64,000 nt of DNA from an uncultured Bacteroidales bacterium (GTDB lineage: Bacteria > Bacteroidota > Bacteroidia > Bacteroidales > F082), in the NCBI GenBank assembly GCA_900317055.1, contig ONFF01000005.1, positions 1 through 64,000 on the forward strand, written 5' to 3'. This document shows positions 9,655 to 64,000 of this stretch, piece by piece. The notes beneath the pieces were generated by a model, which made no database searches, was not told the origin of the DNA, and saw only the letters and a list, made by a program, of their open reading frames with translations. How positions within the stretch are numbered: the stretch's first letter is position 1; the number at the start of each line of letters is the position of its first letter. Both the position numbers and the translations under genes were made by a program.

Positions 9655-9724
9655 GGCTATCAGCTGTAAGTGATTACCTATCAGTAAAATGCTGACTGTT
9701 GAAAGCTGATGGCTGATAGCTGAT
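9655..9724. repeat. Short interspersed 'gctgatagct' repeat, copy 2
   Basis: Inverted-repeat element beginning GGCTATCAGCTG and ending GATGGCTGATAGCTGAT, the same family as 2574-2649 and 49544-49619. It occupies most of the gap between the membrane protein gene and gcvP. Confidence 0.7.
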
Positions 9725-9760
9725 ACCAACTAGAAATACAACAACTTAAACAAATCAAAT

Positions 9761-12625
<2,865 letters not shown>

Positions 12626-18359: not shown

Positions 18360-22671
<4,312 letters not shown>

Positions 22672-23129: not shown

Positions 23130-23133
23130 AAGC

Positions 23134-24811: not shown

Positions 24812-24812
24812 C

Positions 24813-25664: not shown

Positions 25665-25685
25665 AATTCAATTATTTTTAAGTTA

Positions 25686-28096: not shown

Positions 28097-28098
28097 AT

Positions 28099-30252
28099 TT
28101 ATACTATTAATGATTCTTCTAACCAGTAATTATCTGTAATCAGTCCGACTTCTTTGTCATAAAATGCACTGTCGCCTACTACAAAGATACCTTCCAACAC
28201 TTCTTCTATTGCACCTGCGTCTTTCAGTTTCTTTATATCTCCTTTTCTCACATTGACACTAAACTGCGACAGAGCTTTCATCAGAGAATACGCAACCCCA
28301 TCCTTCTTCAAACGTACCACCAAGTCCATGCTGTTTTTCCAGTTCACGATAACCGAAGTGGTGTCGTCGTCAATCAATTGAAACTCCGAAGCCGCAGTTT
28401 CAAACTGCATTTCGGGTTTATAGAGCAAATCTTTTATGTTAGCCTTGTCAAAACTATCAACCCGCGAATACAACTGTCTGAAATAGGCCTCCATTGCCTC
28501 TGGCGAAAACCAATCGTGGTCTTTACCCATTCCAATACGGGCATTATTGGTTTGTGCCATAAATCCTGGAGGCAACGGTTTCTGAAAACCGAACACGAAA
28601 GCTTTTCCCATCTCCAACTTGCCTTCTCTATTGCATCTACCCGCTGCTTGGAGAATTGAATCAAGTCCTGCCTCTTGACGAAACACGACAGGAAAGTCAA
28701 TATCAACACCCGCCTCAATCAGTTGGGTTGCCACCACCCTGATAATGGCGTTTGAAGGGTCTTTAAGTGCAGACTTAATCCTATCAATATTATCCATTAC
28801 ATGGTCAGGGCACATCATGCGTGACAAATGCAGACAGATACCATCTTTGGGCAAACGGGAATAAAGCTCTTTAGCATCCTTTCGAGTATTCACAATGCAA
28901 AGTACACGAGGATGTTGAGACAATTCTTCTGCAATTTCATCATAATTCTTCCTAAACTCTTCAAATTCCAACTCCACACGTCGTAATCGGTCATGAAGAT
29001 TTGCACTTCGCGGAACAATTTCATGGATTTCAGACAAGCCATCAATTGTGACCATGGGATTAGTCCCTTGGATTTTCCCCTTCAATTTGGGTTGGCTTGC
29101 CGTCGTAAACAAAATGGAAACGCCAAACACTCTTTTCAAAGTGTCAAAAGTGTCAATAATCGGCCCTAAAAACTCAATTGGCAATGTTTGCACTTCATCA
29201 AGAATCAAAACGCTTTTTGCGATGTTGTGAAGCTTGCGACAATCCGAAGGTTTATTGCTAAATAAAGATTCAAACAGTTGAACATTGGTTGTTACAATGA
29301 TAGGATAATCCCAATTCTCGGTTGCCAATTTCAATGTTTGAGACAATTCTTTGTCATCAAACGCTGTATGATCGACATTTGAATGATGTTCAAGCACATT
29401 TTCCACACCAAAGATGTTTCTTAACACACTTGCAGTTTGCGTAATGATACTAGTGTAAGGAATAGCAACGATGACACGCTTTAAGCCATTCTTGATGGCA
29501 TGTTTAATAGCCCACAATACAGAAGCCAAGGTTTTACCGCCGCCCGTTGGAACCGTCAAACTATAAAAACCCAACGGATTAGCACTCTCTTCTATACACC
29601 AATTCTGCACTTCGTTTCGAATCCGATTCACCTCGGTATCAGGAGCATTTTTCTTCAAACCTTCCATATATGCCTCTAGTTTTTCTTCAAGTATAGTCAA
29701 AGAGTCATATTTCCCTCTCAATCTGCTTTGTTCAGGCTGCATAAATGCTTCTGTGTCCAAAAAGTCAGCATCTACCAAACAACTATAAAGCATTCGTTCC
29801 AAATGATGAATATCTTTGGACTTTTCTAATCTCGGTATTTCCAAATCAGCCCTAACTTTTTCAATGGTCACATCATCAGGCATTTGTTGCTTCAACACTT
29901 CTTTCATATCACCATCATCATACAGACCTCGATGATGTCCCATCAACACATTATCCATCAATAAATGGAAGTTAGGGAACAACACTTTGGCAATCAAAGC
30001 ACCTACATAGGCATGCCTATAATCACCTTCTACCTTAATTAAAGGGTCTTTCTTACTTTCTTTCAAAATGTGTTGCTGAAACGCTTTTTTCTCCTTGCCT
30101 TTATCATGCAACAATCCCAATACCCTACCCCATTCCGCCATGCCAAAGTTAGCAGCAAATTTAGAAGCCATCAAAGACACACCCTCTTGATGTTCCTCAT
30201 TGGGTTGAATTGCCCAATCTTCAGTTCTAATGTGCGAAATAATTTCTCTCAT
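28099..30252 (-). CDS. cas3: Cas3 nuclease-helicase (type I-C)
   Basis: A 717-residue protein with an N-terminal HD nuclease domain: His21, the HD pair His49-Asp50 (LLHDKGK), His80, the HH pair 106-107 and Asp162. An SF2 helicase follows, with Walker A PTGGGKT (235-241), DEVQ box (352-355) and the C-terminal QLIEAGVDIDFPVVFRQ and QAAGRCNREG motifs. It is recruited by Cascade to degrade target DNA. It is the first gene of the cas operon, and its minus-strand TAAATTTG -7-like box (30257-30264) lies so close to the ATG that the transcript may be nearly leaderless. Confidence 0.97.
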   Translation of the reverse strand: MREIISHIRTEDWAIQPNEEHQEGVSLMASKFAANFGMAEWGRVLGLLHDKGKEKKAFQQHILKESKKDPLIKVEGDYRHAYVGALIAKVLFPNFHLLMDNVLMGHHRGLYDDGDMKEVLKQQMPDDVTIEKVRADLEIPRLEKSKDIHHLERMLYSCLVDADFLDTEAFMQPEQSRLRGKYDSLTILEEKLEAYMEGLKKNAPDTEVNRIRNEVQNWCIEESANPLGFYSLTVPTGGGKTLASVLWAIKHAIKNGLKRVIVAIPYTSIITQTASVLRNIFGVENVLEHHSNVDHTAFDDKELSQTLKLATENWDYPIIVTTNVQLFESLFSNKPSDCRKLHNIAKSVLILDEVQTLPIEFLGPIIDTFDTLKRVFGVSILFTTASQPKLKGKIQGTNPMVTIDGLSEIHEIVPRSANLHDRLRRVELEFEEFRKNYDEIAEELSQHPRVLCIVNTRKDAKELYSRLPKDGICLHLSRMMCPDHVMDNIDRIKSALKDPSNAIIRVVATQLIEAGVDIDFPVVFRQEAGLDSILQAAGRCNREGKLEMGKAFVFGFQKPLPPGFMAQTNNARIGMGKDHDWFSPEAMEAYFRQLYSRVDSFDKANIKDLLYKPEMQFETAASEFQLIDDDTTSVIVNWKNSMDLVVRLKKDGVAYSLMKALSQFSVNVRKGDIKKLKDAGAIEEVLEGIFVVGDSAFYDKEVGLITDNYWLEESLIV

Positions 30253-49665: not shown

Positions 49666-50694
49666 ATGAAATACACCAAACTTACCCTTATCACTCTTGC
49701 CGTAGCCGCTTTGATGACGGCATGCGGGCAAAAAGACACATCAACTACCAATTCGGGACAAGACACACAAAAAGCCGCCCCTGTTGTCAGCATTATCACT
49801 GCTCAGGCAGAAGATGTCGATGTCACGAACACTTTCACCTCTAACATTGAACCATTCGCTACGAACAACATTGTCTCGCAGACAGCAGGCCGCATCGTGA
49901 GCATCAAAGCCGAAGTGGGACAGAAAGTGCACAAAGGCCAGCTTTTGGCCACCATGGACGATGTGAACTTGGCCAAGACGCGTATGCAATATGTCAACGA
50001 CTCGACCGAACTGGCGCGCCTTACCGAACTCTACAACATCGGTGCTGTGGCCCAAGCTGACTACGACATGGCCAAGCTTGCCCTCAACATCACTAAGAAG
50101 ACCTATCACAACCTGGCTGAGAACACCTATCTCCGTAGCCCCATCAACGGTGTGGTGACCGCCCGTAACTACGACAAAGGCGACATGTACAGCATGACCC
50201 AACCCATCTTTGTCGTCGAGCAGATCCAACCCGTCAAGATGCTGGTCAATGTGTCGGAAAGCCTCTTCACTCAAGTTCATAAGGGTATGGAGTTCGAAAT
50301 CACCGTGGATGCCTATCCCGATGAAGTCTTCAAAGGAAAGGTGAACCTGCTCTACCCCACTGTCAGCGCCACCACCCACACCTTCCCCGTCGAGGTCATC
50401 TGCCAGAATGCCGACCAACGCCTGCGTCCCGGCATGTTCGCCCGCGTGACGGCCAACTTCGGCACCAACCACCACATCGTGATTCCCGACATTGCTGTCG
50501 TGAAGCAACAAGGCTCGGGTGAGCATTTCGTCTATGTGCTCCAGCCCGACAACACCGTGAAGTACACCCTTGTGGAACTCGGCAGACGCATGGGCAACCG
50601 TTACGAGATTATCAACGGCATCAATGAAGGTGATCGCATCGTCACAGAAGGACAGGTGAGACTTAAAGATGGTGTTTCTGTTACTGTTAAATAA
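49666..50694 (+). CDS. RND efflux periplasmic adaptor (MFP) lipoprotein
   Basis: A 342-residue adaptor: lipobox MTAC (Cys20 region), beta-barrel, lipoyl (GRIVSIKAEVGQKVHKGQLLATMD) and short hairpin domains, and membrane-proximal domain (RVTANFGTNHHIVIPDIAVV). The start at 49666 begins the signal peptide MKYTKLTLITLAVAALMTAC; an upstream in-frame ATG at 49630 lies in AT-rich repeat-like sequence. It bridges the RND pump and the TolC duct. Confidence 0.93.
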   Translation: MKYTKLTLITLAVAALMTACGQKDTSTTNSGQDTQKAAPVVSIITAQAEDVDVTNTFTSNIEPFATNNIVSQTAGRIVSIKAEVGQKVHKGQLLATMDDVNLAKTRMQYVNDSTELARLTELYNIGAVAQADYDMAKLALNITKKTYHNLAENTYLRSPINGVVTARNYDKGDMYSMTQPIFVVEQIQPVKMLVNVSESLFTQVHKGMEFEITVDAYPDEVFKGKVNLLYPTVSATTHTFPVEVICQNADQRLRPGMFARVTANFGTNHHIVIPDIAVVKQQGSGEHFVYVLQPDNTVKYTLVELGRRMGNRYEIINGINEGDRIVTEGQVRLKDGVSVTVK

Positions 50695-50785
50695 ATGCGG
50701 AATGATGAATGCTGAATGCTGAATTGAGGCGAAGCCATGCATCGCATTATGACATTCCGCATTCATAATTCATAATTCATAATTC
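50694..50785. repeat. AT-rich inverted repeat with tandem 'aattcat' words
   Basis: AATGCGGAATG (50694-50704) is exactly reverse-complemented at 50753-50763. Tandem ATGAATGCTGA words follow the left arm and ATAATTC words follow the right. It fills the gap between the adaptor and pump genes. Confidence 0.7.
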
Positions 50786-50792
50786 AACGAAT

Positions 50793-53700
50793 ATGAGTCT
50801 ACAAAGAACAGCAGTAAATAATCCGGTGACGACGGCCTTGGTGTTTGTCGCCATCGCCATTTTCGGCATCTTCTCCCTGATGAATCTCTCCATCAACCAA
50901 TTACCTAACATGGAGACCAACTTCATCATGGTGATGACCTCCTATCCGGGAGCCAGTGCCGCCGATATCGAGACCAACATTTCCAAGACCTTGGAGAACA
51001 CGCTGAATGCCGTGCCCGACCTAAAGCACCTCTCCTCCACTTCGCGTGAGAACACCTCGGTGCTGTCGCTGGAGTTTGAGAGCGGCATCGACATTGAGAC
51101 CGCCACCAACAATGTGCGCGACAAGATCGACATGGTGCGCAACTACCTACCCGACGGCGCGACCAACCCTGTCTTGTTCAAGTTCAACGCAGAGGACATG
51201 CCTATCATGCTGCTTAGTGTGACGGCTGAAGAGAGTCTGCCCGCCTTGGACAAGATCATCGAAGACCGTGTCACCACGCCTTTGGCGCGTGTAAGCGGCG
51301 TGGGTACGGTGTCGGCCAATGGTGCCCCAAAACGTGAAATCCAGGTCTATGTCGACCCGAACAAGTTGGAAGCCTACAACCTAACCCTTGAAAGCATCTC
51401 CAATACCTTGGCCACCGAAAACCGAAATGTACCGGCTGGTTACATAGACATCGGTTCCAACAGTTACAGCTTGCGTATCCAGAAGGAGTTCACCTCTGCC
51501 AAGGAGATGGAGAATGTCATCGTAGGCTCACGTGGCACTGCACCTATTTACCTGCGTGATGTGGCTACCGTCAGAGACGGCTCTGAGGAACGTATTCAGG
51601 AGTCGTACAGCAATGGTCGCCAAGGTGCTACCATCGTCATCCAAAAGCAGACCGACGCCAACGCTGTCAACGTCATCAAAGGCATCAAGAAGCAGCTGAA
51701 AGTCATCGAACCCACCCTGCCCTCCGATGTCAAGCTGAATATCATTGTGGACGGCTCCACCTCTATCCAAAACACCATCAACAGTTTGCGCGACACCATC
51801 TTCATCACTTTCATCCTCGTGATGCTGGTCGTATTCATATTCCTAGGTCGTTGGCGCGCCACCTTCATCATCGTGTTGGCCATCCCGATTTCGTTGCTGG
51901 CTTCTTTGATTTACCTGTTTGCCACTGGCAACACCTTGAATATCATCTCCATGTCTTCACTGACCATCGCTATTGGTATGGTCGTGGACGACGCCATCGT
52001 GGTCTTGGAGAACATCACGACCCACATCGAACGCGGCTCGAAGCCCAAAGAGGCCGCCGTGCATGCCACCCAAGAAGTGCAGTTGTCAGTCATTGCCTCC
52101 ACTTTGACCATGTTGGCAGTGTTCCTGCCCTTGACAATGATCAAAGGTACCACAGGCGTGATGTTCAAGCAATTGGGTTGGATTGTGTCCATCATCATGA
52201 TTGTCTCCACCTGCGGTGCCCTTACCTTGGTGCCGATGATGTGTTCCAAGATGCTGGTGATGAACCCCCATCAGGGCAAATTACACAAAGCCATCTTCCG
52301 TCCCATCAACAAGGCTTTGGATGCCATCAGCAACGGCTATGCCCGTCTTATCGGTTGGTGTGTCAACCATCGTAAGGTGGTCATCTTTGGCATGTTGGGA
52401 CTGTTTATCTTGTCCGTCGTCTTCCTTGCCCCGACCTTAAAGACTGAAATGATGCCTAAGATGGATGAAGGCCGTCTGAGCATCAACATTGAGTTGCCGA
52501 CCGGTACGGGTCAAGACGTCACAGGTGCCTTTGCCAAGAGCCTTGCAGAGGATTTCATGGCCATCCCCGAGGTACAGATTTGTAACTATAGTTTCGGCCA
52601 GGCCGACTCCGACAACGCTTTTGCTTCGATGCGTAGCAACGGCACGCACATCATGTCGTTCAACCTGCGCCTCGGTACCAAAACCGAACGCCGCAAGGCA
52701 GGCTTGCGCAAGACCAGCGAGGTGGCTGATGAGATTCGCGCCAAACTCAATGCCATGCCTGAAATCAAGAAAGCCAATGTCAACGAAGGCGGTGGCGGTA
52801 TGGGCGGCATGAGCACGGTGCAAGTCGAGATTTACGGCTATGATTTCGAGACCACCGACCGAGTGGCCAACGAAATCGCACAAAAGCTCCGTGACCGTGG
52901 CATCCTGCAGGTCATCGTGGGTCGAGATGAATACACACCTGAGTATCAAGTCGACTTCGACCGCGAGAAACTGGCCCTCAACGGCTTGAACAGCACCACG
53001 GCTGCTACCTATGTCAAGAACCGCATCAACGGCTCAGTAGGCTCTTACTATCGTGAGGACGGTGAGGAATACGACATCCGCGTGCGCTACGCTCCCGAGT
53101 TCCGCAAGAGCATCGAGGACATTGAGGACATCAAGATCTACAACTCGTATGGGCAACCCGTCCGTGTAGGCGATCTTGGCGAGGTGGTCGAATCGTTGAC
53201 ACCGCCACAGATTCAGCGTAAGGACCGTGAACGTATGGTCAGTGTCACTGCCGTTGTCGGCAAGGGACAGGTGCTGAGTGATGTGGTAAAGATGTGCGAG
53301 GAAGTCATTGAAGACACCGCCATCCCGCCCGAGATCTTCCCCAAAATCGCTGGTGACTACGAGACCCAGCAGGAAATGTTTGGTGACCTGCTCACCTTGC
53401 TCATCCTCATCATTATCTTGGTTTACATCGTGATGGCCTCGCAGTTCGAGAACCTGATGAAGCCTTTTGTCATCATGTTCTCCGTGCCTTTCACCTTCAC
53501 CGGTGTGTTACTCGGCTTGTGGGCCACCAACACCGCCTTGGGTGCCATGGCCTTCGTGGGCATCTTGATTTTGATGGGTATCGTCGTGAAGAACGGTATC
53601 GTGCTCATCGACTACACCACCCTTTTGGAAGAGCGCGGCGTAGAAGTCAAGGAAGCCACTGTAAAAGCCGCCCGTTCGCGTCTGCGTCCTATCTTGATGA

Positions 53701-53927
53701 CCACGCTGACCACCGTCTTGGGTATGATTCCGTTGGCCATCGGTCGCGGCGAAGGTGCCGAGATGTGGAACTCCTTGGGTACCACTGTGGCCTGGGGTTT
53801 GACTGTGTCTACTCTTATCACCTTATTATTAATCCCTGCGCTGTATTGCTCGTTGGAGACAAGAGCGGTGCGTAGAAAGAGAAGAAAAGCTGAGGAAGCA
53901 TTGACGAAGACTGAAAATATTAGATAA
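50793..53927 (+). CDS. RND-family multidrug efflux pump
   Basis: A 1044-residue inner-membrane transporter with two large periplasmic loops and about 12 membrane helices. RND landmarks are present: LPNMETNFIMVMTSYPGASAADIE at the start, GMVVDDAIVVLENI in the fourth-helix region, and MGIVVKNGIVLIDYTTLLEERG late in the protein. It belongs to the AcrB/MexB-like HAE1 class. It is the third gene of the tripartite operon. Substrates (drugs, bile acids) are not deducible. Confidence 0.95.
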   Translation: MSLQRTAVNNPVTTALVFVAIAIFGIFSLMNLSINQLPNMETNFIMVMTSYPGASAADIETNISKTLENTLNAVPDLKHLSSTSRENTSVLSLEFESGIDIETATNNVRDKIDMVRNYLPDGATNPVLFKFNAEDMPIMLLSVTAEESLPALDKIIEDRVTTPLARVSGVGTVSANGAPKREIQVYVDPNKLEAYNLTLESISNTLATENRNVPAGYIDIGSNSYSLRIQKEFTSAKEMENVIVGSRGTAPIYLRDVATVRDGSEERIQESYSNGRQGATIVIQKQTDANAVNVIKGIKKQLKVIEPTLPSDVKLNIIVDGSTSIQNTINSLRDTIFITFILVMLVVFIFLGRWRATFIIVLAIPISLLASLIYLFATGNTLNIISMSSLTIAIGMVVDDAIVVLENITTHIERGSKPKEAAVHATQEVQLSVIASTLTMLAVFLPLTMIKGTTGVMFKQLGWIVSIIMIVSTCGALTLVPMMCSKMLVMNPHQGKLHKAIFRPINKALDAISNGYARLIGWCVNHRKVVIFGMLGLFILSVVFLAPTLKTEMMPKMDEGRLSINIELPTGTGQDVTGAFAKSLAEDFMAIPEVQICNYSFGQADSDNAFASMRSNGTHIMSFNLRLGTKTERRKAGLRKTSEVADEIRAKLNAMPEIKKANVNEGGGGMGGMSTVQVEIYGYDFETTDRVANEIAQKLRDRGILQVIVGRDEYTPEYQVDFDREKLALNGLNSTTAATYVKNRINGSVGSYYREDGEEYDIRVRYAPEFRKSIEDIEDIKIYNSYGQPVRVGDLGEVVESLTPPQIQRKDRERMVSVTAVVGKGQVLSDVVKMCEEVIEDTAIPPEIFPKIAGDYETQQEMFGDLLTLLILIIILVYIVMASQFENLMKPFVIMFSVPFTFTGVLLGLWATNTALGAMAFVGILILMGIVVKNGIVLIDYTTLLEERGVEVKEATVKAARSRLRPILMTTLTTVLGMIPLAIGRGEGAEMWNSLGTTVAWGLTVSTLITLLLIPALYCSLETRAVRRKRRKAEEALTKTENIR

Positions 53928-53930
53928 GCC

Positions 53931-54224
53931 ATGAAAGCCATCCTAATAACCTATAACCAAGCCTACTACGACGAAATCGCCAAGGTGCTGAACGACAACG
54001 GCACGAAAGGCTTCACCGAGTGGAACGAAATCAAGGGCCACGGTAGCGAGACGGGAGAGCCTCACTACGGCACCCATGCCTGGCCGACCTTGAACAATGC
54101 CATCATCAGCATCGTCGATGACGACAAGGTAGACGGCATCCTGAACCAGCTGCACGAAAAAGACCTCAAGACCCCAGATTTGGGGCTGAGGGCTTTTAGC
54201 TGGGGGATTGAGAAGATGGTTTGA
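53931..54224 (+). CDS. PG0541-family transporter-associated protein
   Basis: A 97-residue cytosolic protein starting three bases after the RND stop. It has a ferredoxin-like pattern (MKAILITYNQAYYDEIAKVL... IISIVDDDKVDGILNQLHEKD), similar in outline to PII-like regulators. Proteins of this type are regularly found after RND pumps in Bacteroidota. A regulatory or assembly role for the pump is inferred from position only. Confidence 0.8.
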   Translation: MKAILITYNQAYYDEIAKVLNDNGTKGFTEWNEIKGHGSETGEPHYGTHAWPTLNNAIISIVDDDKVDGILNQLHEKDLKTPDLGLRAFSWGIEKMV

Positions 54225-54288
54225 GGGATTTGTGCAGTTTCTGACTGCACGATTTGCGGCAGCTTGAAGTTATTTCGACGAATTACAG

Positions 54289-55326
54289 TTACAAGCTTCT
54301 CTCCTTTTCAATAAGTTCTTTTATAGCCCTGTCGTAGTCGCTCTCAAACTGAAGCATTTCTTTGCGTCTGTAAACTTCAAATTCCGATACTGCCTTTGCC
54401 TTGGCAGTTTCATGGCTAACTGTCCCATTCCCAATCAATGCAGGCCGGCCCGATACTTTCAGCAACTCGTCAAGTTTGTCAACCCACTCCTGCATCTTCA
54501 TGGGAATTTGCTGTAATGCTTGAATCTCGGCAAAATCCAGATACTGCGAAACTATCAGGTTGAGGAAGTTCAATTCCTGTTCCGTCAGATAATTCTTCGC
54601 AATCTGAACATCGTCTCGTGTGATATAGTTGCCTTTGAAGTTGGTCATGCCAACCATAGGTTTCTCAGCATCCACGCGCTCATAGATGACCTCTGCCGCA
54701 GTATGCTGGTGGGCTGCATAATGTAACTTGTTTTGAACAGTTGCAAAAAAGTTCTTGGTACAATCTGACCGTACATCATAGTCAATACTTGTGGCAAAAA
54801 TGTCGGTCACTTGCTGATAAAGGTTTCGTTCACTGCTTCTAATGTCACGAATCCGTTGCAAGAGTTCCCGAAAATAACGGCTTCGGTTGCCTTTCAGCCT
54901 GTCGTCATCCAATGTGTAGCCTTTCTGAATGAACTCGTGTAGGTGGACCGTAGCCCATTGTCTGAATCTCGTGGCGACTTGTGATTTCACCCTATAACCC
55001 ACCGCTATAATCATATCAAGATTATAGTGGCTGATGTTTCTTTTCACGCTGCGTTTTCCCTCGTTTCGAACTAACAAATATTTTTTGTGAGTTCGATTTT
55101 CATCCAGTTCGCCCTCCGCGTAGATTTGGTTGATATGGTGGCTGATGTTTTGCTGTGACGCATCAAACAATTCGGTCAATTGTTCGGCGGTGAGCCAAAC
55201 ATCATCTCCTTCAAAACGGACATTCACCCGACTCACGCCATTGTCGTCCTGATATATCAGGAAATCTTGATGTTTGATGATTTCAAGGTTATTGTTATCG
55301 GTTGTTTGGGATTTCATATTGATCAT
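54289..55326 (-). CDS. RhuM-family protein
   Basis: A 345-residue (or 342, from an ATG at 55317) protein of the RhuM 'virulence' family, recognised by the N-terminal DVWLTAEQLTELFDASQQNIS, HHINQIYAEGEL, and the NLDMIIAVGYRVKSQVATRFRQWAT block. The N-terminus looks like a DNA-binding motif. RhuM genes are common on mobile islands and near restriction systems; their molecular role is unknown. It is the last gene of the co-directional block and is less AT-rich than the RT gene before it. Confidence 0.88.
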   Translation of the reverse strand: MINMKSQTTDNNNLEIIKHQDFLIYQDDNGVSRVNVRFEGDDVWLTAEQLTELFDASQQNISHHINQIYAEGELDENRTHKKYLLVRNEGKRSVKRNISHYNLDMIIAVGYRVKSQVATRFRQWATVHLHEFIQKGYTLDDDRLKGNRSRYFRELLQRIRDIRSSERNLYQQVTDIFATSIDYDVRSDCTKNFFATVQNKLHYAAHQHTAAEVIYERVDAEKPMVGMTNFKGNYITRDDVQIAKNYLTEQELNFLNLIVSQYLDFAEIQALQQIPMKMQEWVDKLDELLKVSGRPALIGNGTVSHETAKAKAVSEFEVYRRKEMLQFESDYDRAIKELIEKERSL

Positions 55327-55368
55327 GCAGTTTGTAGGTAGTAGGAATTTCTGAGTTTATTTCACATT

Positions 55369-56895
55369 TTAACGGAATTCGTTTTTAATAAAAGATATTC
55401 TTTTCTCCTTTATTGCACGAAATTCTCCATTAGGCAAATCTGTTTTCGGCAAAACTTCATATATAAACAGCCAATATCTATCCATGTCATCAATGAGACT
55501 TTTGGCTTTTTCCTTAAACCTTTTCTTACCTTCCTTGATTTTACCTTTTTCTTTAGTTGTTTTAATATAGGATAATAGCATGAAAACACAATCCTCGCTT
55601 GCAAAGGAATCTTCAATATGATTATTTGATAAATCAAAACCGTATTTTATTGCCCAGTATAATGCGAAACTACAGGACTCATAAATACGCCTACTAACAC
55701 CCACATCATAAACGTCTTGGGCGATGTCTCTAATTGTTCCTTTTGAAATGCCGAAAGCTTCAAACACAAATTCTTCTAACCAATGAACCAAATACGGATA
55801 TAGACAAACGAGGTGATGAATAGTATTGATGTAATACGACATGGCTCGTTTGCCCAAATAAGTATTCGAAATAGTTTTAATGGCATAAGAATAAATCGAT
55901 AGATTATTTGAGCTATTTGCCAAACTGATAACTAAATCCAGATAAGCTTTTAATCTTTGAAACTTAAAAACTACTTTATTGTCTTCTGTTAAATCATTTC
56001 CGATGTAATAACTATTTATAGTTCCTACCCAATCTGAAGCTGATGATACAGGAAGTTTAATGATTTCTGTCTTTTTAGTATTTAATGCTAATTCATATTT
56101 TTTGAGACTTGCATTTAAATCTAACAAGAAGCGTTCTGCCTCATCATCCGAATTAACATAACAGGTAAAATCATCAATATTTCTAATATAGTCATAATTA
56201 GGAGACAAGTCTTGGTCAATACGACACAAAACAAGTTCAGAAAGAAGGTTTGATGAGTGCGGACCAATTAATAATCCATTGGTTTCTTCGTTTTTTATAT
56301 TGCGGACATAATAATCAAGCGTATTAAACCACAATGTTTTATCATCCTTGCTCTTTTTAGCTATTTCTTTTCCAACAATAGCCCACGAAAGGGAATGAGA
56401 ATATATACTTGGGAAACAATTTGAAATATCGGCAGAAACTCTAACTCTTTTCATAATTTGAAGCTTGTCAAGGAACATGGACAAAGAATAATCTTTGTCC
56501 GTGTAATGCTTATTCATCTCAAAAAGTTCATTTTTGTTTTTCAATTTTTGAATATGAATCTGACTAATCTTGTAGTTTTGGTTTGAAGTAGCTTCATTAT
56601 ATACGGCTCTCAATTCTTCCCAATGTTCTGAAATATGTTTGCAAAGATTTGAATATGCAAATGGATTAGGAATGGAAATCAAGCGGGGAATATTTGTATT
56701 CCTTGTTGTTTCGTATCTAATATAATCATGCCCCTTTTGCTCAAATTTCGGAAAACCCTTTGTTTTACAATAATTGTAAAAAGCCTCATTCGATAAAACA
56801 CTAGGTAACTTATCTGCAAACAATCCATAACCAAGAAGACCTTCCAACACATCTTCTTTGGATAATTCATTCATATAATCTTTATATGCCTTCAT
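55369..56895 (-). CDS. Abi/UG-like reverse transcriptase with C-terminal helical domain
   Basis: A 508-residue protein. RT motif A is VSADISNCFPSIYSHSL with catalytic Asp156; motif B is GLLIGPHSSN (207-216); motif C is RNIDDF with Asp241-Asp242. Asn replaces the aromatic residue of the usual YxDD. After the palm (about residue 340) comes a long helical domain (HHLVCLYPYLVHWLEEFVFEAFG...) as in AbiK-like and other unknown-group (UG) RTs tied to phage defence. There is no retron-type VTG and no intron maturase domain. It is strongly AT-rich compared with core genes. Function as an anti-phage RT is inferred from clade features and neighbourhood; the precise UG group was not determined. Confidence 0.85.
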   Translation of the reverse strand: MKAYKDYMNELSKEDVLEGLLGYGLFADKLPSVLSNEAFYNYCKTKGFPKFEQKGHDYIRYETTRNTNIPRLISIPNPFAYSNLCKHISEHWEELRAVYNEATSNQNYKISQIHIQKLKNKNELFEMNKHYTDKDYSLSMFLDKLQIMKRVRVSADISNCFPSIYSHSLSWAIVGKEIAKKSKDDKTLWFNTLDYYVRNIKNEETNGLLIGPHSSNLLSELVLCRIDQDLSPNYDYIRNIDDFTCYVNSDDEAERFLLDLNASLKKYELALNTKKTEIIKLPVSSASDWVGTINSYYIGNDLTEDNKVVFKFQRLKAYLDLVISLANSSNNLSIYSYAIKTISNTYLGKRAMSYYINTIHHLVCLYPYLVHWLEEFVFEAFGISKGTIRDIAQDVYDVGVSRRIYESCSFALYWAIKYGFDLSNNHIEDSFASEDCVFMLLSYIKTTKEKGKIKEGKKRFKEKAKSLIDDMDRYWLFIYEVLPKTDLPNGEFRAIKEKRISFIKNEFR

Positions 56896-56993
56896 AGTAT
56901 GTTGGACTCTATATATTTATTATATATTTATATTTTTTCTGGCAAAACCAAACCTGCCATATTATTTCGTTGAGATTGTTGCTATAATAGGTT
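56896..56993 (-). promoter_or_regulatory. AT-rich gap between NTPase and RT genes
   Basis: A 98-base spacer, far AT-richer than its flanks, with a GGCAGG...TTTTGCC hairpin possibility on the minus strand at about 56941-56958 and alternating AT runs. It could hold a promoter, a small structured RNA or only a spacer. Several defence RTs use a nearby non-coding RNA, so it deserves attention, but no specific fold is clear. Confidence 0.35.
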
Positions 56994-58400
56994 TTATTCA
57001 GAAACAAATCTTTTTAAAACTTTTGGCCAATCATCAAAACTATTGGGTGATTCTTCTCTTCCGTTGATCAAATAAGGTTGAATGCTATTGTTTTTAAACA
57101 GGCATGTTTCAGCATCGTAAACTCCCAAGCCTACTCTATAAAGTCCCTTATTCTCTACAACATTTTTACAATAAAAATAATCAGCGGTATTATTGCTAAA
57201 CAATAACATCAAATACCCAATTATATATCCAATCATCTCACTGCCAATTTCGTTGTATACATTTCTATACCCAGTAACCAAAAGCGTTTCATCTATACTA
57301 ATTCTTTTCATAATAACATACAACCTTAGTATACCAAGATGAATCTGTTTATTACGATAAATCGGGCGCTCTTTAATTTGACTATCAATGTTATCAAATG
57401 AATCCACAATTATTCTAATATTCTTTCCTAATAACACGTCATTAGAAATGACATTTTCAATGTATGTAAGAGGAAGTTCCGTAATGCTGGCAATCTTTTC
57501 TTGAATGAATTTGCATCGTTCTTCTTCAAGTGAATACTTGAAAAGACCTTTCGAGGCAAATTTCTGAATATATCCCTCAAAGTTTGTGTTTTCGCCATAA
57601 AAATGCTCGAATATCTTTCTCGTGTTGTTGTAATCCATAACAAACACAATATTGTCAAAATAGAACTTGTTGTAGAAGTAATTCCTTTTGTTTTGTATGA
57701 AATACTTTTCATCTGTATCAAGATGAGCAGAAAAGACATTCATGATTCTGAACAAATGAGCAGGATCTAATCTGTCCATGTCTTCAATCAATAAAACAAT
57801 CCTCTTTTTAGGATGTTTCATTTTATATTCATTGATACTGTCTTGTATTATTCTGGTTACTATATCTTCTTCTAGTACAGGAATCGTTTCAACTTTATCA
57901 AAGAATTCTTCCAAGGAATCAATAGATTTGTATTCTTTTTTCTTTTCAAGTACTTTTTCTTTTAGTTTAACAAGTAGCTTATTAGCAGAAAGAGCGGCCA
58001 ATATCCCTTTGGCAACTTGGGGAGAAGAATGAAGCTGATTGATGTACGACAACACACTTTCTGCAACGCCCATAAAGTTGTTTTGAATATAGAATGACAA
58101 TGCGGTTTTATCATCAATATCCAAATCTTCCGACAGCATTTCATTGACTGTGATTTGAAATAAAATGTCGCGTTTTATCAGTTCAAATATATCCTTGTTG
58201 TCAAGTACTTGATAATTTATCGGATGCAATGTAATAAAGACAAAACTCCTGTTGCGTTTTTTGATAAACTTCGACAAGAAATAGGTTTTCCCATCTCCGA
58301 ATTTTGCAGAAAGGATTGTTCTTGGATGCGATTTTAGATGAAAAGCAAATTCATCAATTTTGTTATCAATAGGAATCTCAAATTCAATCTTATTTTTCAT
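56994..58400 (-). CDS. KAP-like P-loop NTPase
   Basis: A 468-residue protein with Walker A SAKFGDGKT (31-39) near the N-terminus and a Walker B/DxDR motif LLIEDMDRLDP (203-213), matching the KAP NTPase group (usual pattern GxxGxGKT...DDLDR). No obvious transmembrane insertion is found between the two motifs, although KAP proteins often have one. The C-terminal half is helical and AT-rich in codon use. Its start overlaps the stop of the small gene before it by four bases, and the RT follows after 98 bases. Likely a sensor or effector switch of a defence module (inference). Confidence 0.75.
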   Translation of the reverse strand: MKNKIEFEIPIDNKIDEFAFHLKSHPRTILSAKFGDGKTYFLSKFIKKRNRSFVFITLHPINYQVLDNKDIFELIKRDILFQITVNEMLSEDLDIDDKTALSFYIQNNFMGVAESVLSYINQLHSSPQVAKGILAALSANKLLVKLKEKVLEKKKEYKSIDSLEEFFDKVETIPVLEEDIVTRIIQDSINEYKMKHPKKRIVLLIEDMDRLDPAHLFRIMNVFSAHLDTDEKYFIQNKRNYFYNKFYFDNIVFVMDYNNTRKIFEHFYGENTNFEGYIQKFASKGLFKYSLEEERCKFIQEKIASITELPLTYIENVISNDVLLGKNIRIIVDSFDNIDSQIKERPIYRNKQIHLGILRLYVIMKRISIDETLLVTGYRNVYNEIGSEMIGYIIGYLMLLFSNNTADYFYCKNVVENKGLYRVGLGVYDAETCLFKNNSIQPYLINGREESPNSFDDWPKVLKRFVSE

Positions 58401-58600
58401 ACAAGCATTTCTTTTACTGCGTAATAGGATTCTTTTACTGATATGGAGAACAAGCGACTTCCTCCATTCCTGTCACTTTTTACTCCAATGTGAACAGCTG
58501 TGTGCTCTACTGAAATACTAACAGATGCAATCCAATCAACATTGATTAGAACAGGTTTGCCATCATTAACCGCATCATGTAATTCGATAAATCTTGCCAT
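58397..58600 (-). CDS. 67-residue FlbD-like small protein
   Basis: A short protein (MARFIELHDAVNDGKPVLINVDWIASVSI... SISVKESYYAVKEMLV) whose pattern (start with an L/ELH strand, GKPVLINVDWI, VKESY..VKEML) recalls FlbD-like small domains. It starts ten bases after the fusion helicase stop and overlaps the NTPase start by four bases. It thus bridges the restriction-like and RT-NTPase parts of the block and may be a partner of either. Confidence 0.65.
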   Translation of the reverse strand: MARFIELHDAVNDGKPVLINVDWIASVSISVEHTAVHIGVKSDRNGGSRLFSISVKESYYAVKEMLV

Positions 58601-58610
58601 ATACTATTTA

Positions 58611-61600
58611 TTACTCCATCGCATTTATCCTCGATTCAATAAACGCTACTTCATCATCGGTCAAACGATATTTTGCATATAGTTCCTCATCTGTCCATGG
58701 CTTGCTGAAGTCTTGGAGAGGAACGAATTGATAAACAGAAGATGAAGTATGTTGCGTTCTCTTTTTGACAGAAACTAAATAACGGAAGAACCTTGTTTTT
58801 ATATAACTTATGATATTTTCACATTCAGACTTGGTAAAATGATGATTTTCTGCATCATACCCAATGCATAAATATGTTTGAGAACAAATACTGCCAGGCT
58901 CTCCATAGAATGGTCTACCTAGGACCATTGAATCTGTTCCAGAACCTCCTGCTTCGGGAATAAATACTTTGTGCAACGGTAGTGAGGCCTTGTTTTTTGG
59001 TATGTCTTCCTCGTGTATCCAACCATAACCTAATGCGCTAAGTTTCTTGTTGCAATAATATTTTATCTGATGTCTATCATCTTTTTCAACTGCGAAACCA
59101 TTCCATCTAGAACCAAGCAAGCCATCTTTATCAAAAAAGTGTTGAGGGCTGACCAATTCCGAGAAATTAGTTTCATTCATATACATTCCTTCAATGTCGA
59201 TTATTTTTTTGAATATTGAAGTGGCTCTAATGTCTCTAATAACAATTCCAAGGCCGTTAGCATTGAGCTCTTCCTCTCTAGTTGAAATTATCCCGTTTGT
59301 ATTGAGAGTGTAATGGCATTTTCCAGTATAATAATCGCTATACAGAAAATAATTAACTCCTCCTTTGATTTCAATACTACTATTGTCAAAACAGCTAGAT
59401 GCGTCCGTGAAATCACAGACGGTAATAAAGTGGTTGCCATTAATGTAGCCATCAACCCACTCGTCCGAAATACCTTGACCTGTTTTTGTCATCCATCTAC
59501 TTGGAGTAATTAAGGAAATATATTTAGGCTTGATTTCAACTGTTACATCAATGAGGGATGGATAAATTGCAGAAGCAAATGCAGCATTTGTGTTCGTGCT
59601 ATTTTCAGATGATCTGTTATCTTGATATGGAGGATTCCCTAATATTACATTGAATTTCATTTTCTTTAGTGTTTGGATGTGAGTTTCTTTGTCTTCACCA
59701 ATTAGGTCGTATGTGTTGAAATCAGCAATGATATTCTTGGCTGGTATGTCAAGCAATTTGAAAACTTTATTGGTGAACTCGTATGTGAGTGATGATGTCG
59801 GCAAAGCATAAATGTTTTCTTTGATGGCTTGTCCAAAGCGTTTATAAAGGGCACAAGCAAATTCACCCTGTTTGGATGCAATATCGAGAAAACGCGTCTT
59901 TTTATTTATGCTTTCTTCTGGCAATAAAGCAACCATATCTTCGGCCACTTTAGCAGGCGTAACGATTTCAGATGTCGATAGACGACCAAACTTTTTAAGT
60001 GCACGTTCAACTCTTACAAGTGGTTCGTGGGTCGTGTCGCTCAACAAGTCATTGATGTTGTTGATTTTGTAGTCCAAATCGCTCAACACAAATGGATTGA
60101 TGTGTTTCTGCAAGTATTTGAGTTGGTCGGTTTCCAATCCAACATTGCGCATGATACGCTTGTTGTTCTTGTTGCGCTTAGAGGATTGAATTACTTCATT
60201 CAACGATTTTACACAATCGTCAGTAAGCAAGGCGTAGAAAAGAATTTGCGCAAAGAAAGTGGCAAGACGTTTGTCAAGCCGGTCGTCATTGTCTTCATCA
60301 TTCTTGGTGGAGCCTTTTGCTGGCTTGTCACCACTTGATGCATCTTTTTCATCGTCGTCATCCGCGTTGTCGTAATCATCACCAGGGCCTTCATTTGGCT
60401 TGATGTTGATGCCTTTTTTGTTGTCAATGGGGTCAAGGCTTTTGATGATGTCCAACATGTTGGGGTCTTCAAGCAACTTGAAATCAGTGGGAACAGCTGT
60501 CGCTTCATCCATCACGGTGCGGTTGGCGGAATAGTCACGCACAGCATCCATGATGTTGGTGGGCGTAACCTGGGCTATTTTGCCTTTATTGATGACGATA
60601 ATGGGAGAAATTTCAAGCTCGCGTTTGAGACGTGTTTCCAATTCATCATTGCCGCGTTCATTGGTGTTGACATTGTAAATCTTCGATTTTTGCTCTTGCA
60701 TGAAAAACATACGGTTGGGGTCGAAGTCAACGAGCAATGTCTGCGGCTTCATGTTGTACTTGATTGTATTTCCGCTTTCATCTTTGTAGGTGGTGACATA
60801 CTGGTTTTGGAGGCGGAAAATCGCTTGGTCATATTCCTGAGGCGACGACACATCTTTCAAGAATATCATAGTGTCCCATTCGCGCACCGTGCTGCCAGTA
60901 AGCATTCGGTTGACGGTAAGCGTAATGGTTTTCTTGCCTTCGCTTTCCAGTTGCTTGATGTGATGTTTGATCTCCTCTGTGGTGTCAAAATTGCTTTCGT
61001 GGCCAGCGATATTGACCAAAGTATATTCATCCAGATTCTTGAACTCATCTTTGTGGTCGCCAATCAGTTTTTCCATCGCATCACATGAGGCACAGAAAGG
61101 CAAAACCATGACGATATGGCGACACATTTTGCCTTCTTTGAGTTTGTCGTAATCGAGGAAGCCGAGGAGATTCTCATCCTCAGCGTTACCATCAATGACC
61201 CGTAATAGGTCAAGCACTTCTTTTTCATGCACAAACAAGCGGTGCTTCTTTTCGGATGTGGTATCTTTGGAGATGGACTGTGGGCGGAACAACTCATTAA
61301 GTTGTGTAGTTTTGCCATCGTTTTTGAGTTGCTCTATCAGTGTCCGTGCTGATTCGCTTGGGTTGAAGGCGAAGCGAATCATCTGCGGGAAACCATAATA
61401 GGGATTGTCCCAATCTTGATAAGGTTTTTGCGTGTCAGGGTTGATATTCTCTTGCTCAATATCTTCTTTATGCTGACTATCCCATTCTTCCTTGTCGTCA
61501 ATGATGTCGGTGAATTGATAGAACGCCACAATATCTTCTTTCTTGAACTCGCTACCCATCAGGATTCGATATGGGGTACCTGAAAGGTGCAAAGTGGTAT

Positions 61601-62624
61601 CAACCCTAAGTTCCTTGATGTTATTCAAGCCCTTCTCTAAATCCTCAAAAGTGTTTTCACCTGAACGAACTCGTTCTTTTCGAATTTGAGCATCTGTAAG
61701 GTTATTGACATTGCGCAGTACCTTACCGTATTCCTCTGCGCGTGCGCCAAAGTGGGTTTCATCCACAATAAGCAAATCAATGTTCTGATGGAACAAGTCT
61801 TTGTGTTTGTCTTTGATATCGTCACCCATCAGGTCTTGCAAAGTGAGAAACACGACCACCTTTTTGCCTTCTTCAAGTTTTTTGGAAATTGCTTTGTCTT
61901 CTCTGAGGTTTTCGCTGCAAAGGAAAACATAGTCGACAAAAAGGATATGGCTCTCTACTGTTCTCTTCCATTCATTCTTCACATCAGCCTTTGCCGAAAC
62001 CACAAGCACAACTTTAGCTTGCATTTTGGCAGCACAACACATTGAAGTGAATGACTTGCCAAAGCGCATAACGGCATACATAAGAAGGTTCTTATGATTA
62101 TTCTCACGAGCTTCAAGAAAGCGTTTGATTGTAAAATACTGATTAGGTCTGGTTCCATAACATTCTGTACGGGCAAAATGGGTCTCTTCGGGCAATCGTT
62201 CTTCGGAATAGAACTGATATTGTCGAGACCCATCAGTGTGTATGGCGTATTGTTCAATGTCCTTGATTGCCTCATCAATGTCTTTCGGCGTGGCATTTTC
62301 AAAGAACTCACGTGAATAATACGGAAGACCATCAAAATCGGTGGGCTGTAGGCGGTGGTAACGCTTGATGATTTCCAAATAATAATGGATGGCGAAATCG
62401 CGGAAATACTTGCCGTTTTCAGTCTTGGCCAGCCATTCCCAATCACTTTCATGCTCGAGATTTGGGAAATAATCTCTCCATTCGTCCAAACGGACATTGA
62501 CAGGTCGATAAGTGTCGCCCACTTTGAGATAATTGGGGACCGTGTTGGTTGTGAAGGCATAGATGTGAGGCTCAATGCGTCCGACGATCAGATTGTCAAG
62601 TATGTCAGTATTGAATGTTGTCAT
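58611..62624 (-). CDS. GIY-YIG nuclease + SF2 helicase + N6-adenine methyltransferase fusion
   Basis: A 1337-residue protein. Residues about 15-120 fit a GIY-YIG (T5orf172-like) nuclease: HIYAF (20-24), LKVG (33-36), Arg45, His80 and SREFFENA (104-111). Then an SF2 helicase: MRFGKS (186-191), VDETHF (287-292) and HLSGTPYRI (about 347-355). A Lys/Asp/Gly-rich linker (DDYDNADDDDEKDASS...) precedes an Eco57I-like N6-methyltransferase: LSTSEIVTPAKVAEDM, LDIASKQGEFACAL (motif I) and NPPYQD (motif IV, 997-1002). A helical C-terminus of possible target recognition type follows. This is a single-chain nuclease, translocase and methylase. Overlap with the upstream gene (four bases) shows a shared operon. 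The GIY-YIG call is by pattern and should be checked. Confidence 0.82.
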   Translation of the reverse strand: MTTFNTDILDNLIVGRIEPHIYAFTTNTVPNYLKVGDTYRPVNVRLDEWRDYFPNLEHESDWEWLAKTENGKYFRDFAIHYYLEIIKRYHRLQPTDFDGLPYYSREFFENATPKDIDEAIKDIEQYAIHTDGSRQYQFYSEERLPEETHFARTECYGTRPNQYFTIKRFLEARENNHKNLLMYAVMRFGKSFTSMCCAAKMQAKVVLVVSAKADVKNEWKRTVESHILFVDYVFLCSENLREDKAISKKLEEGKKVVVFLTLQDLMGDDIKDKHKDLFHQNIDLLIVDETHFGARAEEYGKVLRNVNNLTDAQIRKERVRSGENTFEDLEKGLNNIKELRVDTTLHLSGTPYRILMGSEFKKEDIVAFYQFTDIIDDKEEWDSQHKEDIEQENINPDTQKPYQDWDNPYYGFPQMIRFAFNPSESARTLIEQLKNDGKTTQLNELFRPQSISKDTTSEKKHRLFVHEKEVLDLLRVIDGNAEDENLLGFLDYDKLKEGKMCRHIVMVLPFCASCDAMEKLIGDHKDEFKNLDEYTLVNIAGHESNFDTTEEIKHHIKQLESEGKKTITLTVNRMLTGSTVREWDTMIFLKDVSSPQEYDQAIFRLQNQYVTTYKDESGNTIKYNMKPQTLLVDFDPNRMFFMQEQKSKIYNVNTNERGNDELETRLKRELEISPIIVINKGKIAQVTPTNIMDAVRDYSANRTVMDEATAVPTDFKLLEDPNMLDIIKSLDPIDNKKGINIKPNEGPGDDYDNADDDDEKDASSGDKPAKGSTKNDEDNDDRLDKRLATFFAQILFYALLTDDCVKSLNEVIQSSKRNKNNKRIMRNVGLETDQLKYLQKHINPFVLSDLDYKINNINDLLSDTTHEPLVRVERALKKFGRLSTSEIVTPAKVAEDMVALLPEESINKKTRFLDIASKQGEFACALYKRFGQAIKENIYALPTSSLTYEFTNKVFKLLDIPAKNIIADFNTYDLIGEDKETHIQTLKKMKFNVILGNPPYQDNRSSENSTNTNAAFASAIYPSLIDVTVEIKPKYISLITPSRWMTKTGQGISDEWVDGYINGNHFITVCDFTDASSCFDNSSIEIKGGVNYFLYSDYYTGKCHYTLNTNGIISTREEELNANGLGIVIRDIRATSIFKKIIDIEGMYMNETNFSELVSPQHFFDKDGLLGSRWNGFAVEKDDRHQIKYYCNKKLSALGYGWIHEEDIPKNKASLPLHKVFIPEAGGSGTDSMVLGRPFYGEPGSICSQTYLCIGYDAENHHFTKSECENIISYIKTRFFRYLVSVKKRTQHTSSSVYQFVPLQDFSKPWTDEELYAKYRLTDDEVAFIESRINAME

Positions 62625-63673
62625 TTGTCTTTTACAAGTGTATGGAATTCAACAATCTCGATGGGTCTCTCTTTAATGTTCCACTGGGTTTTATCCCAAT
62701 CGGCCACAAGTACCTTGATGCCATTATGTAAATGTACATCATTCTTTTTGCAGCCTGGACAAGGTATGATTTTGTCTTTGGTGTTCACCTTCTCAAACAG
62801 ATTGGTTTGATGTACGGCTTTAATGTATGTGCTATAACACGTCATAGGCAATACCATCTTCAAGCCGTCCATTTGAAAGAGATTCCAAGAGATAATCTTT
62901 GCTGCATGATACAAATAGGAACGGAACGGAACGATAGTTTTAATCTTGTGTTGGATGGCAAATTCCTTATAATAATCCATGAAGGTGTAGAGTATGGCCT
63001 CTCGTGCAAGTAAAAGGCTGTCGCCTTGCCACTCGTAACCGTATGTGGATTTGATGGCATTGAAGGCCCAATAATACCAATCTCTCATGGTCTTGACATT
63101 CTCACCGACAACACGAAGTTTGCGGTCGAGCCTTCCAACACGCATTTTGAGTTCCTTGATGGGGATGCCAGTAGTGGTGTCGTATCGACTTACAAGATAT
63201 GGGGCTTCACCACAGGTGATTTCAAGGCAGTTGCTACAAACATACTCTTGCCATGATTTGGATTCTGGAAACTCTATCTTTCCATCTGTCGGTATCCATT
63301 CATGTGTTTGCATGTTGAGAGTGTTGAAAACGTTTTTTCTCCCAAACCAAGCGTCATCAACAAGGTTGTTTTGGGCATTGCAAATCCATGAAGGCGTAAA
63401 CACCTCCGCTTTGTCGCGAATGCGAAAACGCTGTTCCTCCTCCGATTTAACCGACCTTGGACGAATGACATTGCCATTGATTCCGGTAATTTGCTCAATC
63501 GTAATTGGATGATGAAAAGAATACGACTCGCCATACTTCTTCTCATACATATCTGTAGCCCAGAATATATTACGGTTGGTCGTATGGTCTTTGAGCAATG
63601 CTCTCAGCACCTCTGGCCAACGCCGAAGGATGTCGTTTTCTAATATGTCGGTTACATTATCCGTCATTACCAT
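62621..63673 (-). CDS. Methyltransferase-like partner protein ('restriction subunit M' type)
   Basis: A 350-residue protein. RDKAEVFTPSWICNAQNN holds the FTP motif (92-94) and LEITCGEAPYLVSRYDT resembles methyltransferase motif I (154-160), but no NPPY or DPPY catalytic motif is seen. The C-terminal CPGC (near 308) suggests a lone zinc knuckle. Proteins of this kind recur upstream of helicase-methyltransferase genes in Bacteroidota. It may form a non-catalytic or specificity subunit of the downstream fusion enzyme. The start at 63673 or 63667 is uncertain. Confidence 0.75.
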   Translation of the reverse strand: MVMTDNVTDILENDILRRWPEVLRALLKDHTTNRNIFWATDMYEKKYGESYSFHHPITIEQITGINGNVIRPRSVKSEEEQRFRIRDKAEVFTPSWICNAQNNLVDDAWFGRKNVFNTLNMQTHEWIPTDGKIEFPESKSWQEYVCSNCLEITCGEAPYLVSRYDTTTGIPIKELKMRVGRLDRKLRVVGENVKTMRDWYYWAFNAIKSTYGYEWQGDSLLLAREAILYTFMDYYKEFAIQHKIKTIVPFRSYLYHAAKIISWNLFQMDGLKMVLPMTCYSTYIKAVHQTNLFEKVNTKDKIIPCPGCKKNDVHLHNGIKVLVADWDKTQWNIKERPIEIVEFHTLVKDK

Positions 63674-63687
63674 ATTAAATTGGCCTT

Positions 63688-63703
63688 CAAAAATACAAAA
63701 ATA
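63688..63703 (-). promoter_or_regulatory. Tandem -7-like boxes of the defence operon
   Basis: On the minus strand TATTTTTG occurs twice back-to-back (63688-63695 and 63696-63703), 14-22 bases before the start of the first gene. No -33 box is evident at 19 bases. Confidence 0.5.
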
Positions 63704-63779
63704 ATTGCATTGTGGAAATGTTTTGCATAGTGTGCAAAGAATAAAAACTATTTTCGTGTTTTTGTTAGATTAATTGTCC

Positions 63780-64000
63780 TCACCCCACCATCCCCAAAAT
63801 CACCTCAGGCACAATGCTCATTTCAGTAACCGCGCAAAGCCCCGCCCCCATGTCCTTCAAGCTGGCACCCAACAGATAGACTTTGTAGTCGATGATAAGA
63901 AAACGGTCGTGGTTGCGGTGGGACAGTTGGAAAAACTCAATTTCGGGATATTGGACGTTGTGTTTCTTCAGGTCGGTGAGAAATTGTTCGTTAAAGCGTG
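63780..64000 (-). CDS. Partial gene: PLD-like C-terminal fragment
   Basis: The frame is open from the window edge to a TGA at 63780-63782, giving 72 residues ending ...GMVG. It contains SHRNHDRFLIIDYKVYLLGAS, the HxD(x)n pattern of phospholipase D-like domains, as found at the C-terminus of some ORF6N/regulatory proteins of mobile islands. The rest lies outside the window, so the full domain set is unknown. It reads in the same direction as the block before it, but a separate promoter intervenes. Confidence 0.7.
   Translation of the reverse strand, partial: RFNEQFLTDLKKHNVQYPEIEFFQLSHRNHDRFLIIDYKVYLLGASLKDMGAGLCAVTEMSIVPEVILGMVG

Follow-up and report, generated by a model that had tools for sequence, protein, structure and literature searches.

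A defence-like gene block of an uncultured Bacteroidales bacterium, probably independent antiviral units stacked at a chromosomal hotspot

How does a block of six defence-like genes compare with the antiviral systems described for its parts? Passages in PMC13213688 and PMC13314766 present DRT4 as a single-gene system in which a reverse transcriptase (RT) makes untemplated single-stranded DNA (ssDNA) primed on tyrosine, and in which the phage protein ORF55 shields this ssDNA, which becomes toxic. The part of PMC12424860 that deals with Qat defence states that QatA, a KAP nucleoside triphosphatase (NTPase), binds single- and double-stranded DNA and that its loss had limited effect on that defence, and Table 3 of PMC8934634 lists an RT of the AbiK class with a KAP_NTPase neighbour (AUJ27137.1, CP015444.1). 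Here we analyse a stretch of 64,000 nucleotides (nt) from an uncultured Bacteroidales bacterium, positions 1-64,000 of the forward strand of contig ONFF01000005.1, which we call the window; its block at 54289-63673 holds six genes, all on the minus strand. We consider it probable that this block holds independent antiviral units stacked at a defence hotspot, namely a restriction pair and a three-gene cassette with RhuM and ORF6N genes as neighbours, and not one six-gene system. The genes, with lengths in amino acids (aa), and the cassette are as follows.

62621-63673, minus strand: methyltransferase-like (methylase-like) gene, 350 aa, partner in the restriction pair; PADLOC MTase_II PDLC03390, 360.1 bits
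58611-62624, minus strand: type IIG-like single-chain restriction enzyme gene (IIG), 1337 aa; PADLOC REase_MTase_IIG, 1121.6 bits; Pfam ResIII and Eco57I
58397-58600, minus strand: 67-aa gene, small partner of the NTPase and first gene of the cassette; the pairing is seen in loci of relatives
56994-58400, minus strand: KAP/RdrA-like P-loop NTPase gene, 468 aa, named from invariant motifs, Pfam matches of relatives and a PDB match
55369-56895, minus strand: DRT4/UG15-type defence RT gene, 508 aa; PADLOC Drt4, 610.8 bits, E 5.5e-184
54289-55326, minus strand: RhuM family gene, 345 aa, outside the cassette; Pfam Virulence_RhuM, E 1.8e-105
55376-58611, minus strand: extent of the three-gene cassette, a single blastn alignment with RGIG7101 (L010)

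The coordinates of the open reading frames bear out the six minus-strand genes of a first-pass annotation made from the letters alone, and the profile matches listed above agree with its naming of a methyltransferase-like partner, an Abi/UG-like RT and RhuM.

The units occur apart in related genomes. The methylase-like protein has relatives in 11 genomes of the 99 from the same genus, one of them being the window's own. Of the other ten loci, eight (L109-L116) were inspected, those of the two weakest matches (E 2.5e-4 and 3.4e-4) being excluded, and in every one of the eight IIG-like sequence lies directly behind the methylase-like gene. Genome-wide searches at E<=1e-3 gave no RT or 67-aa match in these eight genomes and, for seven of them, no NTPase match anywhere in the genome; the eighth (G026) has one NTPase match, on another contig. 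The cassette recurs in the Bacteroidales metagenome-assembled genome RGIG7101 (contig JAFYHS010000005.1, locus L010, which is one record with genome G832 and is counted once), where the 67-aa gene is again followed by the NTPase gene and then by the RT gene, and that genome has no match to the methylase-like protein. The first-pass annotation had left the choice between one composite system and two stacked ones; these comparisons favour the stack and contradict the composite, which we regard as highly improbable. In favour of a single six-gene system, the genes share a strand, short junctions and an AT-richness relative to the genomic core, but against it stand the restriction pair without RT or 67-aa matches, the cassette without a methylase-like match, a RhuM gene of a different lineage beside each cassette, and a G+C content (GC) that differs between the units. 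The genome comparisons showed no conserved co-occurrence of all six genes, for which the annotation had suggested looking. Its remark that the RT and NTPase genes are more AT-rich than the core is confirmed, with GC of 0.318 and 0.316, respectively, against 0.496 for window 1-54288, the baseline for the block; the values are 0.373 for the 67-aa gene, 0.413 for IIG, 0.425 for the methylase-like gene and 0.435 for RhuM.

The junctions within the block are as the annotation had given them, with overlaps of 4 nt between the methylase-like and IIG genes (62621-62624) and between the 67-aa and NTPase genes (58397-58400) and a gap of 10 nt between IIG and the 67-aa gene (58601-58610); the NTPase and RT genes are separated by 98 nt and the RT and RhuM genes by 42 nt. 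Sigma-70-type promoters occur at chance level (30 found versus 29.4 expected), as do terminators (8 versus 7.0), a Bacteroides-type promoter pattern, in the consensus that we assume for it, has no occurrence on the minus strand, and no Rfam RNA reaches its gathering score in window 50000-64000. The first four genes, which the annotation took as a probable operon, may be transcribed together; in evolution, however, the border runs between the second and third of them, at the 10-nt gap.

By their sequences, the methylase-like and IIG genes make up what we class as a type IIG-like restriction-modification (RM) pair. In its length and set of domains the large chain resembles the type IIG RM enzymes of the Eco57I type, being a single chain with a helicase, an Eco57I-type methylase and a probable GIY-YIG nuclease; it is ordinary in this respect, and a methylase-like partner recurs beside it. 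The first-pass annotation had read the chain as a fusion of GIY-YIG, helicase and methylase, and the Pfam matches to ResIII and Eco57I support the last two. The GIY-YIG domain has no Pfam match in the IIG protein; some plasmid relatives that align over it are annotated GIY-YIG plus Eco57I, and a GIY-YIG nuclease at the N-terminus is probable. A PDB sequence search with the IIG protein gave no match. Among the inspected same-genus genomes, the N-terminal part of IIG is matched at 86% in G848, 79% in G826 and 48% in G026, the match is confined to the helicase part at about 22% in G002, G021 and G858, and it is confined to the C-terminal half in G816 and G859. Read by eye, the methylase-like protein shows CGEAPYL, which resembles motif I, and lacks NPPY. 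The large IIG chain would methylate host DNA and cut unmodified DNA, and the small methylase-like protein probably aids recognition or modification.

The 67-aa, NTPase and RT genes, in turn, appear from sequence comparison to be a mobile cassette separate from the restriction pair. The window and L010 proteins are 82% (67-aa), 85% (NTPase) and 88% (RT) identical, and their DNA aligns by blastn over 3236 columns at 83.8% identity, from window position 58611, the last base of the IIG gene and of its stop codon, to 55376, just before the stop of the RT gene. A scan of genome contigs returned a single locus, L010. For the 67-aa, NTPase (codons 1-419) and RT genes the rough ratios of nonsynonymous to synonymous change (dN/dS) come to 0.16, 0.076 and 0.10, respectively; being low, they suggest that all three genes have been kept by purifying selection. 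The RhuM protein beside the L010 cassette, which is cut by the contig end, is 49.5% identical to the window's over 204 aa, and since the cassette proteins are 82-88% identical, RhuM lies outside the cassette and is probably a bystander. Because the two cassette loci are related by descent, their adjacency counts as one event. The NTPase gene of L010 is split into two frames near the C-terminus (10001-11406), by decay or by an assembly fault; an NTPase copy in G018 (L007 8427-9998) is likewise interrupted into two open frames.

What kind of RT does the cassette carry? Profile and PDB matches indicate the DRT4/UG15 type: the PADLOC Drt4 profile (PDLC02178) spans RT residues 1-507 (the best other class, Drt6, reaches 284 bits), PDB entry 21ou_A, named UG15, is matched at E 3.4e-50 with both catalytic motifs aligned, and the catalytic residues D156 and D241-D242 are present and invariant in a three-sequence RT alignment. 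The likeness to DRT4/UG15 proteins (PDB 21ou and others) thus extends over the full length at 610.8 bits. The window RT differs in falling below the NCBIfam equivalog cut-off and in having the NTPase and 67-aa genes upstream, whereas DRT4 is a single gene as the passages cited above describe it. By analogy with characterised DRT4, the RT most likely makes untemplated ssDNA; once stabilised by a phage protein, this ssDNA would become toxic or sequester factors, so that the cell stops and phage growth stops with it. Matches of the DRT4 type at >=40% identity occur in 3 of the 99 same-genus genomes; two adjoin an NTPase gene, and the third, in G016, does not, that genome having no NTPase match. 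Scans with the RT further returned a viral contig (L107) with a DRT4-type RT at the contig end, its upstream side beyond the sequence, and 208 plasmid records, none covering 80% of the RT; a viral-contig scan with the single RT sequence returned no relative.

The NTPase shows residues G35, G37, K38, D207, D209 and R210 invariant across an alignment of 16 sequences, the window's included, and we take these positions to be the Walker A and B motifs of the KAP family. The label KAP-like in the first-pass annotation holds through relatives, 11 of the 16 aligned sequences (window included) matching Pfam KAP_NTPase (PF07693) at E<=0.01 with a best value of 2.2e-13, but the window protein itself scores 16.2 against a gathering score of 20 (E 0.0066). 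Its best PDB match is RdrA, and a PDB sequence search with the NTPase profile gave one weak match, E 0.067; RdrB, the adenosine deaminase that partners RdrA in RADAR, has no match among the six block proteins. The KAP NTPases that are reported to act in defence, PifA, QatA and Tmn, have a P-loop core and the family's Walker pattern in common with the window NTPase, which differs in lying under the Pfam cut-off, in having no PADLOC match (PifA is matched by 2 of the 16 aligned NTPases) and in having no transmembrane-like segment, its hydropathy maximum being 1.24.

The NTPase has matches in 8 of 99 same-genus genomes, 11 of 393 genomes in a sample of the order and 5 of 395 in a sample of the phylum (the window's genome in each), as well as in 2 plasmid records and 16 IMG/VR contigs; a scan of phage records with the NTPase gave no match, and a viral-contig scan with the single NTPase sequence gave no relative. 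When the weak rows L013, L014 and L025-L028 are excluded, 34 distinct NTPase loci remain: 30 have neither the 67-aa gene nor the RT in the stretch covered, 2 have the 67-aa gene alone and 2 have both. Sixteen of the 30 partnerless loci are viral contigs (L091-L106), and phage genes, sought through ten neighbouring proteins on six viral NTPase contigs, included tail or terminase genes in three of the six. This partnerless family on IMG/VR contigs is a candidate phage-borne exclusion gene. At two NTPase loci, in G025 (L009 8036-14071) and on the S. copri plasmid (L015 3366-10392), NACHT proteins stand close by (1309 and 1319 aa, with 51% identity between the two), and at L009 a TIR_2 protein separates NTPase and NACHT.

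The 67-aa protein is matched at E<1e-3 in five same-genus genomes, the window's own among them, and has a further relative on the S. copri plasmid, which gives five relatives and, with the window, six loci. In four of them (the window, G832, G875 and S. copri) the 67-aa gene overlaps the NTPase gene by 1 or 4 nt, which makes the pairing of the two genes, one of the links the first-pass annotation had singled out, well supported by sequence and the better supported of those links; in G838 the relative lies 185 nt from a different ATPase. The annotation's FlbD label does not hold: PF06289 has no match in the window protein, and only one of the six relatives matches it, at E 0.27. Profile searches gave the window protein no family match, its predicted structure is poor (pLDDT 57.7), and no relative was returned by the 67-aa alignment against the PDB or against viral contigs, or by a plasmid scan with the window protein, the scan with the S. 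copri relative returning that record alone; against 159 genomes of the order the alignment matched the window's own genome alone. Elsewhere, in G875 (L087 7641-10302) a 68-aa gene and a gene at the Zeta_toxin cut-off come after the 67-aa and NTPase genes, and in G871 (L085 2067-9556) a 67-aa relative and a 107-aa gene with no Pfam match have close to them a Cas12a-like gene and its repeat array, the last two recognised by eye. Taken together, the NTPase and the 67-aa protein would be a KAP/RdrA-like ATPase pair, one that occurs apart from the RT as well; judged from the fold, its likeliest form is a ring that is driven by ATP and acts on nucleic acid. The pair is a compact candidate defence unit, the NTPase family of which is also found partnerless in viral contigs.

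Do the RT and the NTPase/67-aa pair cooperate? We propose that they probably travel together as co-selected neighbours, and that a direct coupling between them is possible. In one alternative the three proteins are a single working system, an ATPase ring that senses infection or handles nucleic acid and that switches on, feeds or protects the RT's ssDNA. The same gene order in two species with different surroundings, the exact ending of similarity at the cassette edges, the purifying selection on all three genes, the DNA binding stated for QatA in PMC12424860, the AbiK-class entry of PMC8934634 and the joint presence of NTPase and RT matches in more same-genus genomes than expected (4 of 99) all speak for such a system, yet we hold it to be doubtful. 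An NTPase gene adjoins a DRT4-type RT gene in only two loci, which share an origin and count as one event, G016 has its RT without an NTPase match, in G875 and S. copri no RT stands beside the 67-aa and NTPase genes, DRT4 is reported as sufficient alone in the passages of PMC13213688 and PMC13314766, the L010 NTPase is interrupted, and at L107 the upstream neighbour of the RT is out of view. The first-pass annotation had suggested a search for NTPase and RT together, and they are seldom neighbours, the two loci in which they adjoin being related to each other. Of the 393 genomes sampled from the order, the window's alone matches both, the NTPase and RT samples being of equal size with the same genomes listed and only the best three or four candidates per genome being scored.

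A second alternative takes the 67-aa and NTPase pair as a separate defence unit, toxin-antitoxin-like or solo, with the RT an unrelated chance neighbour in the island. The pair without an adjoining RT in G875 and S. copri, the 98-nt gap before the RT gene and the partnerless NTPase of the 16 viral contigs, with tail or terminase genes in three of the six tested, as expected of an autonomous exclusion gene, make this quite possible, if short of an even chance; against it, the RT is retained in the other cassette locus although the restriction pair is missing there, which is less likely by chance alone. A more specific idea seems to us unlikely, namely that a DRT4-type RT gained a KAP/RdrA-like ring ATPase of its own together with a 67-aa adaptor, and that the ring gates, exports or shields untemplated ssDNA; a host ATPase would then do some of the triggering that falls to the phage protein in single-gene DRT4. 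Our reading of the block as a stack is compatible with both a three-gene system and two units side by side, and is independent of that answer. If the cassette is one system, an RT reported as self-sufficient can be coupled to further parts, namely an ATPase and a small adaptor, and the cassette offers a direct route to how untemplated DNA synthesis is controlled.

Has this arrangement been described before? The first-pass annotation knew of no system with this gene set, and none was seen in the literature searched; a related arrangement is in print as the AbiK-class entry of PMC8934634, in which an Abi/UG-group RT adjoins a KAP NTPase. That entry differs in RT class and is one listed case, likened here by its description in Table 3 alone. 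No DRT4 with an NTPase was seen in the literature searched, which does not include the primary DRT4 and UG/Abi papers, so that absence from print is not established.

Several observations weigh against the stacked reading or against parts of it. A single transcript would be compatible with the 10-nt junction between the IIG and 67-aa genes and with the 4-nt overlaps, and no promoter-like internal start stands out above chance. The flanks of 1.5 kb in the inspected methylase-like loci stop short of the far end of the IIG gene, and for this reason the partner genes were checked by the whole-genome searches given above. The cassette genes, staying together under purifying selection, fit a working three-gene system as well as co-transfer. 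Among the 99 same-genus genomes, NTPase matches occur in 8, RT-superfamily matches in 8 and both in 4, which is above expectation (Fisher P 0.001) and gives P 0.04 when the two cassette genomes are removed; in two of the four, however, G025 and G875 (L054, L053), the RT is of the Abi-P2 class, with 99.6% identity between the two, and is found at a distance of 15 and 80 kb from the NTPase on its contig. As to the RT itself, its score against the NCBIfam Drt4 equivalog is 382.2 bits, below the cut-off of 450, and the mechanism we infer for it is taken from reviews on the DRT4 family and not from this protein.

The block fills a chromosomal defence hotspot, at which related bacteria carry other antiviral genes or none. 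The genes that border it in the window are as follows.

63780-64000 (contig 63780-64787), minus strand: ORF6N-domain gene, 3' end; recurrent hotspot gene
53931-54224, plus strand: conserved hotspot flank gene, 97 aa; match in 89 of 99 same-genus genomes

The ORF6N gene, a seventh co-directional gene, is cut by the window end. The left flank gene is presumably P-II-like and the right one, which lies at about 64860-66620 of the contig and is also matched in 89 of 99 same-genus genomes, presumably ABC-F-like. In 24 genomes with an ABC-F-like protein of >=91% identity and both flanks on one contig, split or missing flanks being excluded, the interval measures 2, 438, 438, 442, 446, 456, 456, 461, 461, 602, 1189, 1241, 1244, 2123, 2425, 3544, 3781, 4554, 4975, 5746, 6193, 7303, 8572 and, in the window, 10,641 bp. 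A further 15 genomes with an ABC-F-like protein below 91% and flanks on one contig include 13 with intervals of 5.5-7.4 kb, one of 56.6 kb (G843) and one of about 30.6 kb (G820).

Nine other genomes were read at the hotspot and their occupants scanned with PADLOC. These are a type II RM enzyme in G855, a type III RM system in G822, Cas12a in G865 and a DpdF/PsyrT-like helicase fusion in G848; the one protein scanned in G864 gave a weak REase_II match, and the single proteins scanned in G852 and G016 match the candidate families PDC-M45A and PDC-S05, respectively. In G868 none of four proteins scanned has a PADLOC match at E<=1e-10, and in G858 the hotspot is empty and the two flanking genes overlap. 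ORF6N relatives of 82-92% identity stand at the hotspot in four of the nine (G822, G865, G864 and G016), and the ORF6N gene therefore belongs to the site. The interval between the P-II-like and ABC-F genes in this Bacteroidales genus could be mined for further defence systems.

Two of the occupants merit a brief description. The fusion in G848 (L122 203-5086) is a protein of 1627 aa, the first half of which matches DpdF/PsyrT-like helicase models and the second half GajB-like UvrD helicase models. The hotspot of G868 (L118 752-8582) holds a five-gene set, the last four genes of which are similar to Wadjet in size and order; as PADLOC at E<=1e-10 matched none of the four proteins, L118 is not counted as a known system. 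Finally, within the window itself, GC falls to 0.39-0.47 over about 8 kb at 22001-30000, the sequence upstream being mostly at 0.49-0.60 except at 8001-10000, and this low-GC stretch is possibly another island.

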